NCBI GenBank assembly: GCA_947455645.1 | Contig: CANGPA010000009.1 | Location: 1 to 51,124 of the forward strand | Reading direction: 5' to 3' | DNA from: Hyphomicrobiales bacterium | GTDB taxonomy: Bacteria; Pseudomonadota; Alphaproteobacteria; Rhizobiales; Beijerinckiaceae | Length of the DNA: 51,124 nucleotides | In this document: piece after piece, positions 30,494 through 36,931 of the stretch | Numbering within the stretch: position 1 is the first letter of the stretch | How the letters are laid out: each line of letters opens with the position of its first letter | Position numbers and translations under genes: made by a program | Notes under the pieces: model-generated | Told to the model about the DNA's origin: nothing | The model's database searches: none | Seen by the model: only the letters and a program-made list of their open reading frames with translations

Positions 30494-30603
30494 GCTGCAC
30501 ATCCGGCTTGCCCCGCACCGTCTTGCCCCATCCCGTCCCTTTTGGTTTACCTGACACCCCCCCTTGCGATAGGGTGCCGCCTCACGTCGGGAGCCTTTGG
30601 ATT

Positions 30604-33483
30604 TTGACCCTCCGCACCCTTTTGCAAAGCCTGATCCTGAGTGGTGCGGCCCTTGTCTTCGCGGCGCTCGTTTGCGCTCGGCCGGCCTATGCGATCGACG
30701 TCGTCGTGATTCAGGCCGAATCCGCCGCGATCGACCTTCTGCCGAGCATTGATCCGCATCGCTCGAGCGGCGACGAGATTCAGATTACAACGGCCCCTAG
30801 CGCCGACGGAATCGTCCGCCGCATCGCGGTCAAAGCGAAAGCCGTGGGCGGCCAGCCCGACTGGATCGTGTTCGCATTGCGTAACGACTCGGGCGCAACG
30901 ATGACCCGCTGGCTCGTTGCCCCCCACCAGCATCTCGTCGGCTCCGGCGTGATCTGGCCCGATCTCGGTGCGACCCGCCTCGTCAATGTCACCGCGAGCC
31001 AAGGCGCCAATCCCGAGCGTCTGCCCAATCCCGAAGCCGATATTTTTCAGCTCCAGCTTGAACCCGGCACCGCGATCACCTTTGTTGCGGAATTGGCCAA
31101 TCCGAGCCTGCCGGAACTCACGCTCTGGTCGCCCGATGCCTATAAGGACAAGGCCAATGGCCTGACTTTTTATCGCGGCATCATCACCGGCATCATTGGC
31201 TTGCTCGCCCTGTTTTTAACAGTGCTCACTTTGATCCGCGGTACGATTATTTTTCCGGCGGCAGCGTTGCTTGCGTGGGCGGTTGCCGCTTATGCCGCGG
31301 TTGATTTCGGTCTGTTTGGCCTTCTGCTATCGACCACGGCCGAAGGCGAGCGCATTTATCGCGCGGGCGCGGAAGCGGTGCTTGCAACCACGCTTCTGGT
31401 GTTTCTGCTCGCTTATCTCGATCTCAACCGCTTGCGCGTTCATGTCAGCCAGATCGTCACACTCTGGCTTGTGTTTTTAGGCAGCATGATCGCCGTCACC
31501 ATTATTGATCCGGCGGTGGCATCGGGCCTTGCCCGTCTATCGATTGCCTTCGTGGCCGTCATTGGGTTGTTGCTCATTGTTTATCTCGCAACCCATGGGC
31601 AAGCACGCGCCATCTTGCTGATCCCGACATGGATCATCCTGTTTGCATGGGTGACGGCTGCCGGTTTCACACTCATGGGACGCGTCACCGGTGATCTTGC
31701 CCCACAATCGCTCATCGGCGGTCTGGTTCTGATCATTTTGTTGATCGGATTCACCGTCACGCAACACGCTTTTTCAGGATCCAATCTTGCGGGTGCCGAA
31801 TTGGCCGATGCGTCGCGCAAAGCCTTGGCACTCACCGGCGCAGGGGACATTATTTTCGATTGGGATTTGGCGCGTGATCACATCCGCGTGGGCGCAGAAG
31901 CCGAAGCGGTGCTGGGCTATTCCACCGGACGCCTTGCCGGCACGCCGGGTGATTTTCTCGATTATCTGCACCCGGCAGATCGCGATACATTTTCAACCTC
32001 CGTGGATCGCGTCTGTCATGAGCGCCGCGGCCGCTTGTCGACCGATCTGCGTTTGCGTGCGGATGACGGACATTATCACTGGTTCCGTCTGCGCGCGCGT
32101 CCTGTGGTGAGCGAAGATGGCATCGTGCTGCGGTTGATGGGCACGCTCTCCGACATCACCGATTCCCGTTTGACCGAAGAACGGCTTCTGCATGATGCAA
32201 TCCATGACAGTCTGACCGGCTTGCCCAATCGTCGCCTGTTGATTGACCGCATCGATTTGATGCTGGATTTGATGCGCGCGGGTGAACCCTTGCGTCCCAC
32301 CGTTGTCACAATCGACATTGATCGTTTCCGCGAAACCAATGAAGCGCTCGGTTTGAGCGGCGGCGATGCGCTCTTGCTCGCCGTCACGCGACGCCTCCTG
32401 CGCCTCGTGCAGCCGCAAGACGGGCTTGCGCGCATTGGGGGAGATCGCTTTGCGATTTTGCTGCTCTCCGAACGCGACCCCGCACCGATCACAGCCCTTG
32501 TCGATCACATTCGAAAAAATCTCGCGACTCCGATTACAGTGGGTGATCGCGAAGCCTCGTTCACCGTCTCCATCGGCATTGCCCTACCCGATCAACGCGC
32601 CGAAACCAGCGCCGATCTCTTGTTACGCAATGCCGAAATCGCCGTTGCCCACGCCAAGAAAATGGGTGGTGACCGCATTGACGTGTTCCGCCCTACAATG
32701 CGCGCGCAATCGAGCGAACGTCTCGCGCTTGAAATCGATTTGCGCACCGCGATTGCGCGTGAGCAGATCATCGTTTCATGGCGCCCTATTGTTCGGCTGA
32801 CCGATCGTTCGATCGCTGGTTTTGAAGCCGTGCCCGTCTGGATTCATCCAGATCACGGCATTATCGGCCAAGATGAATTCATGGAACTCGCCGAAACCGC
32901 CGAGCTTGTGAATGTTCTGTCTAATTTTATTTTGGAGCGCACACTCGTTGAACTGAGCACATGGCAAAAACTGCTCGAAACTGATCCGCCTTTCTACGCC
33001 ACACTGCCTGTCAGCGCGCCCACACTTGAGCGGCCTGAATTTGTGCGTGATGTGAAAGCCGCTTTGGGTCGTGCACCGGTGCCGCGCGCCACTTTGCGCG
33101 TGGAAGTGTCAGAGCGCTATCTGATGGATCATCCCGAACATGCCGTGCATGTGTTGAATGGTCTTGCCGATATTGGCGCAGGCATTGCGATTGGCGATTT
33201 CGGCCATGGCTATTCGTCATTGGGCTATCTCGAACGCTTCCCCTTCGAGGCCATCCGCCTCTCGCGCAGCGTCACGCGGCCTGATCCGTCCGGCGTGCGT
33301 CCCGCCATTCTGCGTTCCGTCGTCAGTTTGGCACAGGATCTCGATGTGGATTTGATCGCCGACGGTCTCGAAACCGAATCGGACGCCATCCAATTCGCGC
33401 AACTCGGCTTTGGATTGGGACAGGGCGCCACATTTGGCCCCGCGCTCACCGCACAAGACACCCGCAAATTGATCAAGGGATAA
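30604..33483 (+). CDS. 7TM sensor with PAS and degenerate GGDEF and EAL domains
   Basis: This is a large membrane signalling protein, 959 aa from the proposed TTG start. The TTG at 30604 is preceded by GGGAG ten bases upstream and opens a clean signal peptide (to about PAYA, residue 29). Reading upstream would overlap the GNAT gene with no family-like sequence. A periplasmic 7TMR-DISM-like sensor domain (about 30-190), seven membrane helices (about 191-389) and a PAS domain (about 399-523) lead to GGDEF (about 529-696) and EAL (about 713-953) domains. The GGDEF motif reads GGDRF (near 612-616) and EAL reads EAV (near 741). DDFG is GDFG (near 864) and the NLS region is altered. Catalysis is doubtful, so it may sense c-di-GMP or act as a scaffold. 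Confidence 0.9.
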   Translation: MTLRTLLQSLILSGAALVFAALVCARPAYAIDVVVIQAESAAIDLLPSIDPHRSSGDEIQITTAPSADGIVRRIAVKAKAVGGQPDWIVFALRNDSGATMTRWLVAPHQHLVGSGVIWPDLGATRLVNVTASQGANPERLPNPEADIFQLQLEPGTAITFVAELANPSLPELTLWSPDAYKDKANGLTFYRGIITGIIGLLALFLTVLTLIRGTIIFPAAALLAWAVAAYAAVDFGLFGLLLSTTAEGERIYRAGAEAVLATTLLVFLLAYLDLNRLRVHVSQIVTLWLVFLGSMIAVTIIDPAVASGLARLSIAFVAVIGLLLIVYLATHGQARAILLIPTWIILFAWVTAAGFTLMGRVTGDLAPQSLIGGLVLIILLIGFTVTQHAFSGSNLAGAELADASRKALALTGAGDIIFDWDLARDHIRVGAEAEAVLGYSTGRLAGTPGDFLDYLHPADRDTFSTSVDRVCHERRGRLSTDLRLRADDGHYHWFRLRARPVVSEDGIVLRLMGTLSDITDSRLTEERLLHDAIHDSLTGLPNRRLLIDRIDLMLDLMRAGEPLRPTVVTIDIDRFRETNEALGLSGGDALLLAVTRRLLRLVQPQDGLARIGGDRFAILLLSERDPAPITALVDHIRKNLATPITVGDREASFTVSIGIALPDQRAETSADLLLRNAEIAVAHAKKMGGDRIDVFRPTMRAQSSERLALEIDLRTAIAREQIIVSWRPIVRLTDRSIAGFEAVPVWIHPDHGIIGQDEFMELAETAELVNVLSNFILERTLVELSTWQKLLETDPPFYATLPVSAPTLERPEFVRDVKAALGRAPVPRATLRVEVSERYLMDHPEHAVHVLNGLADIGAGIAIGDFGHGYSSLGYLERFPFEAIRLSRSVTRPDPSGVRPAILRSVVSLAQDLDVDLIADGLETESDAIQFAQLGFGLGQGATFGPALTAQDTRKLIKG

Positions 33484-34240: not shown

Positions 34241-35089
34241 ATGGCTTTTATGCGTATGTCCCGTCGCGGCATTTCGATTTTCGGCTTGAGTAGACAAGCG
34301 CCGATGATACCGCTGATCTTGACGCTGCTTTTGATTCAGAATGCACCATTGCGCGCGGAACCCTCCGCCGCAGTGGCCTTGCTCGATGGCGGCGCAGAGG
34401 CACAAACCCATAGCGCGGGTGTCGAGATCACCCTGTCAGGCCAAACCAAAACCTATTGGCGCATGCCGGGCGATTCCGGTCTGCCCCCTGTGTTTGACTG
34501 GTCCGCATCCGAGAATGTCGCACGCGTCGCTGTGGAATGGCCCAGACCTGAGCGGATTGCCGATCCGTCAGGCACGATTTTGGGCTATCATACCCGCGTC
34601 ATTTTTCCGCTGCGTGTCACGACAAGCGATGCCGCAAAGCCGATGACGCTTCGTCTCAAACTTGATTTTGCAATCTGCGAAGACCTCTGCGTGCCGGTCT
34701 CGGCCAATGCGGCAGTCAAACTCGGCGCGGGTCCGGCGCGCGCAGCCATCGACGCCTTTCGTGCCCGTGTGCCGCAAGCGGGAACCCTCGGTCAGGGTCC
34801 CGATCCACGCCTCGTAGCCATCGGTCCCGACCCCGCCCGCGCTGATGCCCTCATCGTCACCACCGGCGCGCCGGTTGATGATCTCATTCTGGAGGGACCG
34901 AAGGGCTGGTATTTTGGCGATGCCAGCCGGATCGGCGGCACAGATGCCGCCCCCATTTTTCGGGTTCTGGCGCTGGAAAAGCCAACCAAGGGCCGTTTTG
35001 CCGGGCTTACGCTCACGCTGACCTTGCTCGGCCCCACCTCAGCCACCGAAACCACGCTGACGCTCGACGCCGACGGTGCGATCCGCTAA
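34241..35089 (+). CDS. Secreted DsbD-N-domain-like protein
   Basis: This 282 aa exported protein has a hydrophobic signal segment (PMIPLILTLLLIQNAPLRA) and an immunoglobulin-like domain similar to the N-terminal domain of the thiol-disulfide reductase DsbD. Features are TYWRMPGDSGLPPVFDWS, YHTRVIFPLRV, and the redox-like motif FAICEDLCVP (C146 and C150). The membrane and thioredoxin domains of full DsbD are absent. It may be a stand-alone periplasmic redox partner. Its real function is unknown. A strong AAGGAGG precedes the ATG. It lies upstream of a peroxiredoxin gene, which fits an antioxidant or thiol theme. Confidence 0.82.
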   Translation: MAFMRMSRRGISIFGLSRQAPMIPLILTLLLIQNAPLRAEPSAAVALLDGGAEAQTHSAGVEITLSGQTKTYWRMPGDSGLPPVFDWSASENVARVAVEWPRPERIADPSGTILGYHTRVIFPLRVTTSDAAKPMTLRLKLDFAICEDLCVPVSANAAVKLGAGPARAAIDAFRARVPQAGTLGQGPDPRLVAIGPDPARADALIVTTGAPVDDLILEGPKGWYFGDASRIGGTDAAPIFRVLALEKPTKGRFAGLTLTLTLLGPTSATETTLTLDADGAIR

Positions 35090-35665: not shown

Positions 35666-36931
35666 ATGCGGGTGCTTCTCATCGGTTCAGGCGGGCGCGA
35701 ACACGCGCTCGCCCTTAAACTCTCACAAAGCCCGCTTCTGTCGGCGCTCTTGATTGCGCCCGGTAATCCCGGCACCGCGCAATGCGGCACCAATGTCGCA
35801 CTCGCGATCACCCATCACGCTGATGTCATCAGCTTCTGCCAAAGAGAACAAATTGATCTCGTTGTGATCGGGCCCGAAGCGCCTTTGGTTGCTGGCCTCG
35901 TCAATGATCTCGCGCAAGCGGGCATCAAAGCCTTTGGTCCTTCAAAAGCCGCAGCACAACTTGAAGGCTCGAAAGCCTTCACCAAAGAACTCTGTGTCGA
36001 AGCGCATATTCCAACAGCCGCTTTCGCGCGCTTCACGGAGATTGCGCCGGCAAAGGCTTATGTGCGCAGCAAAGGCGCGCCGATTGTAATCAAAGCCGAT
36101 GGGCTTGCGGCAGGCAAAGGTGTTGTTGTCGCGCAATCGATTGCTGAAGCCGAAGACGCGATTGATGCGATCCTTCAAGGCGCACTCGGCTCAGCCGGTG
36201 CAGAGATCGTCATCGAAGACTGTCTGATTGGCGAAGAAGCGTCGTTCTTTGCTTTGGTTGATGGCACACACGCTCTCGCACTCGCGTCCGCGCAAGATCA
36301 TAAGCGCGTCGGCGATGGCGATACCGGCCCCAACACCGGTGGCATGGGCGCTTATTCACCCGCACCCATCGTCAGCGCAGACATCGCAGAACGCGTGATG
36401 GCCGAAATTATTCGGCCCACCGTTGCGACAATGCAAAAGCGCGGTACGCCTTTTCATGGTGTGCTCTTCGCCGGATTGATGATCACAACCGATGGACCAA
36501 AACTGATTGAATACAACACGCGCTTTGGTGATCCCGAATGTGAAGTGCTGATGCCGCGTCTTGAAAGCGATCTTCTGCCTTTGCTGCTGGCAACCATCGA
36601 CGGCACGCTTCAAACGCACTCCCCGCAATGGTCGGCTGATGCCGCGCTCACTGTTGTGATGGCGGCGAAAGGCTATCCCGGCACGCCTGAAAGCGGCACA
36701 CGCATCGCGGGTCTTGAGCGCGCAGAGGCGCTTTCAAACGTCACCGTCTATCACGCAGGCACAGCGCTTGATGATCACAACGCGCTCATTGCCAAAGGCG
36801 GGCGTGTGTTGGCTGTCACCGCACGCGGCCCATCCATCAAAGACGCCCAAAGCCGCGCCTATGAGGGCGTCGCCGCAATCGATTGGCCGAGCGGCTTCTA
36901 CCGCAAAGACATCGGCTGGCGCGCCGTATAA
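35666..36931 (+). CDS. purD: Phosphoribosylamine-glycine ligase (GAR synthetase)
   Basis: PurD joins phosphoribosylamine and glycine with ATP in purine synthesis. The 421 aa protein has the N-terminal [23 protein letters not shown] and an ATP-grasp fold with [29 protein letters not shown] and [21 protein letters not shown] follow. The C-terminal active-site stretch is [20 protein letters not shown], with metal-binding Glu and Asn. It starts 20 bases after the peroxiredoxin stop, without a strong Shine-Dalgarno. The repeat-rich region follows its stop. Confidence 0.97.

Follow-up and report, generated by a model that had tools for sequence, protein, structure and literature searches.

The rgsP locus and its product

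The DNA analysed here, referred to as the window, is a stretch of 51,124 nucleotides from a Hyphomicrobiales bacterium (contig CANGPA010000009.1), and the gene under study lies on its plus strand at 30604–33483, where a single open reading frame (ORF) runs from a TTG codon to the stop and its translation gives a 959-residue product with a PAS domain and the GGDEF and EAL domains of cyclic di-GMP (c-di-GMP) signalling. Since its best match, architecture and gene order point the same way, the protein is very probably the orthologue of RgsP (Sinorhizobium meliloti SMc00074), and, as judged from its residues, it is probably neither a cyclase nor a phosphodiesterase. The features of the locus, all on the plus strand, are as follows.

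30589–30593, plus: GGGAG, likely ribosome-binding site, 10 bases 5′ of the TTG
30604–33483, plus: rgsP orthologue, 959 codons and a stop, TTG start (ORF and translation, sibling start context, orthologues)
30604–30693, plus: putative signal peptide, residues about 1–30, a hydrophobic N-terminus ending AYA, read by eye
30694–31131, plus: predicted periplasmic beta-rich domain, 7TMR-DISMED2-like (strands in the predicted model; PF07696 in aligned relatives)
31132–31776, plus: seven transmembrane helices, 7TMR-DISM_7TM (PF07695; seven long helices in the model, residues 177–391)
31828–32157, plus: PAS domain (PF08447, PAS_3, 53.2 bits; PF00989, 34.4 bits)
32197–32673, plus: GGDEF domain reading GGDRF, I-site RxxD = QPQD, slowest-evolving domain in the genus (Pfam, alignment, distances)
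32737–33441, plus: EAL domain with a retained fold but without several catalytic and substrate-binding residues (Pfam, alignment, predicted fold)

The TTG start behind GGGAG, which departs from the longest reading, had been proposed in a first-pass annotation of this DNA, and it is supported by three close siblings (L031, L032, and L038) that repeat TTG behind GGGAGCC and by the in-frame stops found upstream of the TTG in L032. Pfam scored the GGDEF domain at 108.6 bits and the EAL domain at 164.7 bits. The seven-helix family PF07695 was found in 37/37 aligned members, the window protein scoring 24.1 bits, which is under the 29-bit cut-off. The predicted model consists of a beta-rich periplasmic domain followed by seven long helices and then the cytoplasmic domains (mean predicted local distance difference test score, pLDDT, 79.7; predicted TM score, pTM, 0.39), the relative placement of the domains being unreliable. 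Between them, Pfam and the model recovered the 7TM, PAS, GGDEF, and EAL parts of the layout described for RgsP, namely 7TMR-DISMED2, 7TM, PAS, GGDEF, and EAL, in PMC6107284.

A full-length match was found in 59 of 60 relatives (E ≤ 1e-60) and in 147 of 149 family genomes (E ≤ 1e-110), which combined give an orthologue in 176 of 179 different genomes. The candidate was the single full-length best match across the order, and within the 60 relatives any further matches were far weaker. A contig scan gave records under the names Hyphomicrobiales, Rhizobiales, Beijerinckiaceae, Methylocella, Methylocapsa, Phreatobacter, Nitratireductor, and others, with none from S. meliloti. Among these named records, L085 (Nitratireductor sp.) is the nearest Rhizobiaceae-like one; it shows 42% identity and has thrC, M16, yqgE, dsbD-like, and peroxiredoxin genes as neighbours. 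The recurrent gene order is thrC–M16–GNAT–rgsP–yqgE(−)–dsbD-like–peroxiredoxin, with M16/GNAT upstream and yqgE downstream. Across 66 loci, each over 6 kb with flanks of approximately 4 kb and some ending at contig edges, thrC was a neighbour in 42, M16 in 44, GNAT in 47, and yqgE in 41, while 17 loci had none of them. One small genome of the order (G038, 1.4 Mb) gave no RgsP, GGDEF, or PilZ match.

According to PMC6107284, S. meliloti RgsP is a polar-growth factor with a GGDQF motif, no cyclase activity, and an active EAL domain, which sits at the growing pole and the septum and binds RgsM, a 646-residue M23 protein with LytM at its end. Its AAL, GAAAF, and EAL-deletion variants complement, and its behaviour is the same in a c-di-GMP-free strain; no function remains once DISMED2, 7TM, or PAS is deleted, a protein lacking GGDEF is impaired in stability or in function, and PAS–GGDEF did not bind c-di-GMP. 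The paper counts 12 further phosphodiesterases and many cyclases in this species and leaves the natural importance of the RgsP enzyme unsettled. The purpose of the polar phosphodiesterase activity is called unknown, for RgsP as for Brucella BdpA, in PMC10212136. The RgsP group (S. meliloti SMc00074, Agrobacterium tumefaciens Atu0784, Rhizobium etli RHE_CH00976, and Brucella BdpA) resembles the window protein in its DISM, seven helices, PAS, GGDEF, and EAL and in its order-wide spread, and the dispensability of cyclase and phosphodiesterase chemistry in that group, as presented in both papers (PMC6107284, PMC10212136), is a further likeness. In Rhizobiales, according to PMC7327166, Rgs proteins do not occur together with MreB.

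Residues of the GGDEF and EAL sites

At 32437–32451, GGDRF stands in place of GGDEF. The other motifs read GFEAVPVW, LPVSAP, AIGDFGHGYSS, and AIRLSRS, and HDSLTGLPNR is retained, hence the letters listed in the first-pass annotation (GGDRF, EAV, GDFG, IRLS, and the kept HDSLTGLPNR) were all found in the sequence. Of the two residues it offered for the Asn position, Pro is correct and Ser is not (LPVSAP). The damage it saw in the EAL motifs is real, but EAV itself alters only the Leu and retains the catalytic Glu, the actual harm being done by four other changes, of Asn to Pro, of the first Asp to Gly, of Lys to Arg, and of Asp to Ser. Beyond that list, two harmful changes were recognized at the equivalents of Q161 and R179, which are R and V. 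In RocR numbering the catalytic and substrate-binding changes of the EAL are Q161→R, R179→V, N233→P, D295→G, K316→R, and D318→S. The equivalents of E175, E265, D296, and E352 are still present, and the I-site Arg of the GGDEF domain is Gln. The roles in RocR of Q161, R179, E175, N233, E265, D295, D296, and E352 are given in PMC7911125, where Q161 and R179 bind the substrate. The earlier proposal that the protein probably has no cyclase or phosphodiesterase activity is supported. S. meliloti RgsP, by contrast, is described as an active c-di-GMP phosphodiesterase, while the window protein has lost metal- and substrate-binding residues of its EAL and its genome yielded no other GGDEF.

The EAL fold is retained in the predicted model, which Foldseek matched to the EAL of PdeA (3u2e) with a TM score of 0.92, 1.7 Å, and 39% identity. 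PdeA (CC3396; PDB 3s83, 3u2e, and 4hjf) is the nearest solved EAL both by sequence (7e-48) and by fold, but it has VNLS, DDFG, and LKID where the window protein has LPVS, GDFG, and IRLS. LapD (6pwk, 3pjw) is another fold match and also combines a dead GGDEF and a dead EAL in one membrane protein; the two differ in that the Q161 and R179 equivalents are lost in the window protein, which scored 80.7 bits with the NCBIfam LapD model against a cut-off of 1020. The input module of LapD is different as well, the window protein having seven helices and PAS in its stead.

History of the motifs across the family

A literal GGDEF was read in 5 of 175 readable orthologues and its Glu in 41 of 175. Thus, the loss of this Glu, to which the first-pass annotation had given weight, is present but not special to the window protein. 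Of 171 scorable orthologues, 121 have all seven residues of the EAL core (E, N, E, D, D, K, and E) and 50 have an altered core, with changes at two or more positions in 39 of the 50, and the history of intact and eroded EALs requires at least 23 changes on a tree of the N-terminal part. The GGDEF is therefore predicted to be dead family-wide, and the EAL to be mostly alive but repeatedly lost. Because most orthologues retain an intact EAL core, the wear of the GGDEF and that of the EAL have separate histories. Neither this mostly intact core (121/171) nor the family context itself, that is, the polar-growth family of RgsP as portrayed in PMC6107284, had been noticed in the earlier reading.

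The genus of the window genome (g1) is represented by 12 genomes, 11 of them with a readable EAL. None of these 11 EALs has kept the Asn, the first Asp, or the Lys, which shows that the substitutions are fixed and do not belong to a sporadic decayed copy. Ten of the 11 have R or H at the Q161 equivalent and V or I at the R179 equivalent, and the divergent G001 lost Q161 but retains R179; the R179-equivalent Arg is present in 120 of 121 EAL-intact relatives. In the GGDEF motif the Glu has given way to R or H in the nine core genomes of the genus and to R in G001, while the GGDEF site retains the Asp of TIDIDRF, its Asn, and its GD pair in 11/11 readable members.

Selection on the domains

Among nine genus members, residue differences amounted to 13% in the GGDEF, 20–23% in the N-terminal domains, and 27% in the EAL, against 56–63% at fourfold sites in each part (61% in the EAL). 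Since residues differ so much less than fourfold sites, every domain of RgsP in the genus is under purifying selection. Two minus-strand ORFs (31993–32508 and 32076–32492) were considered as a source of DNA-level constraint and rejected, as fourfold divergence is 0.59 in the GGDEF part versus 0.56–0.63 elsewhere.

The GGDEF was the slowest domain in g1 and in g54, the two of 27 genera in which the median genome lacks a further GGDEF. The ratio of GGDEF to N-terminal distance is 0.67 (95% interval 0.52–0.84) in g1 and 0.31 (0.15–0.53) in g54, while 20 of the 27 genera lie at or above 1, one of them, at 0.99, only by rounding and the other 19 with values of at least 1.09. The corresponding EAL ratio is 1.30 (95% interval 1.14–1.49) in g1 and 0.87 in g54. 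When pairs at comparable distance were taken, 32 genus pairs gave 0.66 for the GGDEF and 1.43 for the EAL, compared with 1.32 and 0.78 in 5935 EAL-intact pairs. As a general rule, a tightening of the GGDEF was rejected: across the 27 genera its relative distance showed no significant trend with GGDEF count (rank correlation 0.35, p 0.07), and g13 (three genomes, 2–3 GGDEFs) is likewise low at 0.49, with a wide interval of 0.10–1.18.

A single event in sister genera was also rejected for g1 and g54. The closest genus to g54 in the RgsP tree is g5, with g1 outside that pair (support 99), and g5 has 3–4 GGDEF genes, an intact EAL, and a GGDEF ratio of 1.09, that is, no tightening. Two parallel events are favoured for g1 and g54, a single loss followed by a regain in g5 being a possible alternative.

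The c-di-GMP network in the genome and the genus

The window genome (G000; 2.30 Mb, 95% complete, 156 contigs) gave no GGDEF besides that of RgsP in the domain search, a missed gene being possible at this completeness, and no PilZ or HD-GYP match was obtained in the corresponding searches of the same assembly. One other EAL match, on contig C91, barely passed the cut-off (31.5 vs 31.3 bits; 29.7 as a protein), and no EAL signature could be read in it by eye.

L243, 1322–2713, minus: C91 frame of 464 residues, hydrophobic near the N-terminus, with an EAL domain that can barely be recognised (29.7 bits)

The layout of this protein may resemble that of TipF. Ten of the remaining 11 genus genomes have a weak second EAL match, if the sole match of G007 is counted. 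PilZ and HD-GYP are each absent in 11 of the 12 genus genomes, and a second GGDEF protein, with an intact motif, is confined to G005, G008, and G010. In G010 the contig with this second GGDEF gene also carries a PilZ gene and an intact GGDEF–EAL gene. In that genome a membrane GGDEF protein, the intact-looking GGDEF–EAL protein, and PilZ lie within 10 kb on contig C2 (102195–111950; L249, L257), and this cluster is perhaps an acquired exopolysaccharide island. The genus has thus not wholly abandoned c-di-GMP, and RgsP is EAL-dead in G005, G008, and G010 too.

Across the family, the median number of GGDEF matches, among those listed from the best 22 candidates per genome, is 11 in the 121 EAL-intact genomes versus 4 in the 50 eroded ones (Mann–Whitney p 2.9e-5). 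Fourteen of the 15 scorable genomes with no other GGDEF are EAL-eroded, the exception being G017 (78% complete), compared with 33 of 153 other genomes, a count that excludes G005, G008, and G010, all three eroded. Pagel tests gave p 0.0055, 0.0009, and 0.0007 at GGDEF cut-offs of 1, 2, and 5, but 0.56, 0.33, and 0.051 when g1 and g54 were reduced to one tip and 0.88, 0.50, and 0.093 when both were removed. Independent pairs went in the same direction in 5.2 cases and in the opposite one in 0.1 (median p 0.0625). EAL loss is also seen in GGDEF-rich genomes. A general law tying loss of the EAL to loss of the c-di-GMP network is thus not shown, the statistical signal hanging on g1 and g54, two neighbouring lineages.

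Proposed role of the protein and alternatives

Because both enzyme sites look dead and no other signal-making enzyme was found in the genome, RgsP appears to be kept here for a job that needs no enzyme activity. We consider it likely that the window protein, as the RgsP orthologue of a Beijerinckiaceae-like Hyphomicrobiales lineage, works as a catalytically inert membrane receptor or scaffold whose tail is neither an enzyme nor a c-di-GMP receptor. The periplasmic DISM domain would sense or bind something in the periplasm, and DISM, the seven helices, and PAS would both recruit the machinery of wall growth to the septum and the growing pole and regulate it there, with PAS placing the protein. 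The GGDEF–EAL tail would serve as a structural or protein-contact module, in which the EAL may be a relaxed but folded appendage and the GGDEF the constrained cytoplasmic part. The growth role is carried over from the S. meliloti experiments, and we likewise infer the localization at the pole and the use of the tail as an interface. The idea of a signalling scaffold fed by a periplasmic DISM sensor, already voiced in the first-pass annotation, gains support from these results.

On this reading, the lineage resembles a natural version of the S. meliloti phosphodiesterase-removal experiment: RgsP is kept, catalysis is gone, and no cyclase partner was found. This makes the role of the RgsP GGDEF–EAL tail without c-di-GMP testable and points to the GGDEF domain. 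A broader scenario can be offered only tentatively and is in our judgement rather doubtful, namely that a lineage giving up c-di-GMP released the EAL and gave the RgsP GGDEF, under tighter selection, a new use in the growth of the wall at the pole, either in protein contacts or in sensing guanine nucleotides, g1 and g54 being parallel cases. Literature searches, covering search listings and passages of papers, brought up no paper on an EAL-dead RgsP or on RgsP in genomes without other GGDEFs; some EAL variants may already be listed in Table S3 of PMC6107284 (motif variants of homologues).

Several observations weigh against the inert-scaffold reading. No RgsM-like M23 protein was detected in the 95% complete window genome; the two M23 genes found, on contigs C4 and C56 (L259 and L260; frames of 384 and 452 residues), have neither the length nor the layout of RgsM, so the partner may be absent or on a missing piece of the assembly, and RgsP may act without RgsM in this lineage. 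The polar growth of the lineage is assumed, the dead status of the enzyme residues is judged from sequence, and the probable orthology to SMc00074 is taken from best match, architecture, and gene order. PF07696 (DISMED2) gave no match in the window protein at E 0.01, though 27 of 37 aligned family members match.

A GGDEF that no longer cyclizes could still bind guanosine triphosphate (GTP) and so tune RgsP to the growth state. There is a precedent in PdeA, the owner of the nearest solved EAL, whose GGDEF-like domain tunes its EAL through GTP binding, and the slow evolution of the GGDEF in g1 and g54 and the TIDIDRF Asp, Asn, and GD pair kept in all readable members would suit such a sensor. 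We regard it as unlikely, as R or H stands in place of the GGDEF Glu in the nine core genomes and R in G001, and the GRN Arg is G in the genus, though it is also G in the EAL-intact relatives compared. This Arg is the one that we assume to touch the phosphate. Furthermore, the PAS–GGDEF of S. meliloti did not bind c-di-GMP, according to PMC6107284.

Plain decay, by which the C-terminal half would be a useless remnant drifting behind an essential N-terminal half, could draw on the pace of EAL evolution, which in the genus exceeds that of the N-terminal domains (ratio 1.30; 95% interval 1.14–1.49), on the recurrent EAL loss across the family (50/171, at least 23 changes), and on the growth supported by S. 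meliloti RgsP without EAL, as reported in PMC6107284. However, genus members with a full-length copy show no break in the frame, the EAL differs at 27% of residues versus 61% of fourfold sites, and the GGDEF is more constrained than any other domain. Decay may therefore partly suit the EAL but does not suit the GGDEF, and as an account of the whole tail it is quite unlikely.

The first-pass annotation had also suggested a c-di-GMP receptor, that is, a dead EAL which, in the manner of LapD or FimX, still binds c-di-GMP and signals to the growth machinery. The kept EAL fold, with the LapD GGDEF–EAL among the nearest Foldseek matches, the remaining E175, E265, D296, and E352 equivalents, and the intact GGDEF proteins of G005, G008, and G010 speak for it. 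The substrate-binding Q161 and R179 equivalents, however, are replaced in 10 of 11 genus members, while all but one of the 121 EAL-intact relatives keep the Arg, Gln stands at the I-site Arg, and the window genome gave no other GGDEF, PilZ, or HD-GYP match; with Q161 and R179 gone, this receptor is very unlikely. An active phosphodiesterase working through an altered metal site, for which the same four remaining residues and the intact fold could be cited, is highly improbable, because Asn→Pro and first Asp→Gly cost two metal ligands, Lys→Arg and the changes of both substrate-binding residues add to the damage, and no other GGDEF was found to supply the substrate.

Neighbouring genes

Between yqgE and the peroxiredoxin gene, the window encodes a stand-alone DsbD N-terminal-like protein (PF11412) at 34241–35089 on the plus strand, and its place is kept in 40 of the 66 loci. 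Beside the peroxiredoxin gene, purD (35666–36931 of the window) is flipped in strand in L033–L037 relative to the window, L031, L032, and L038, which indicates a local inversion or rearrangement.

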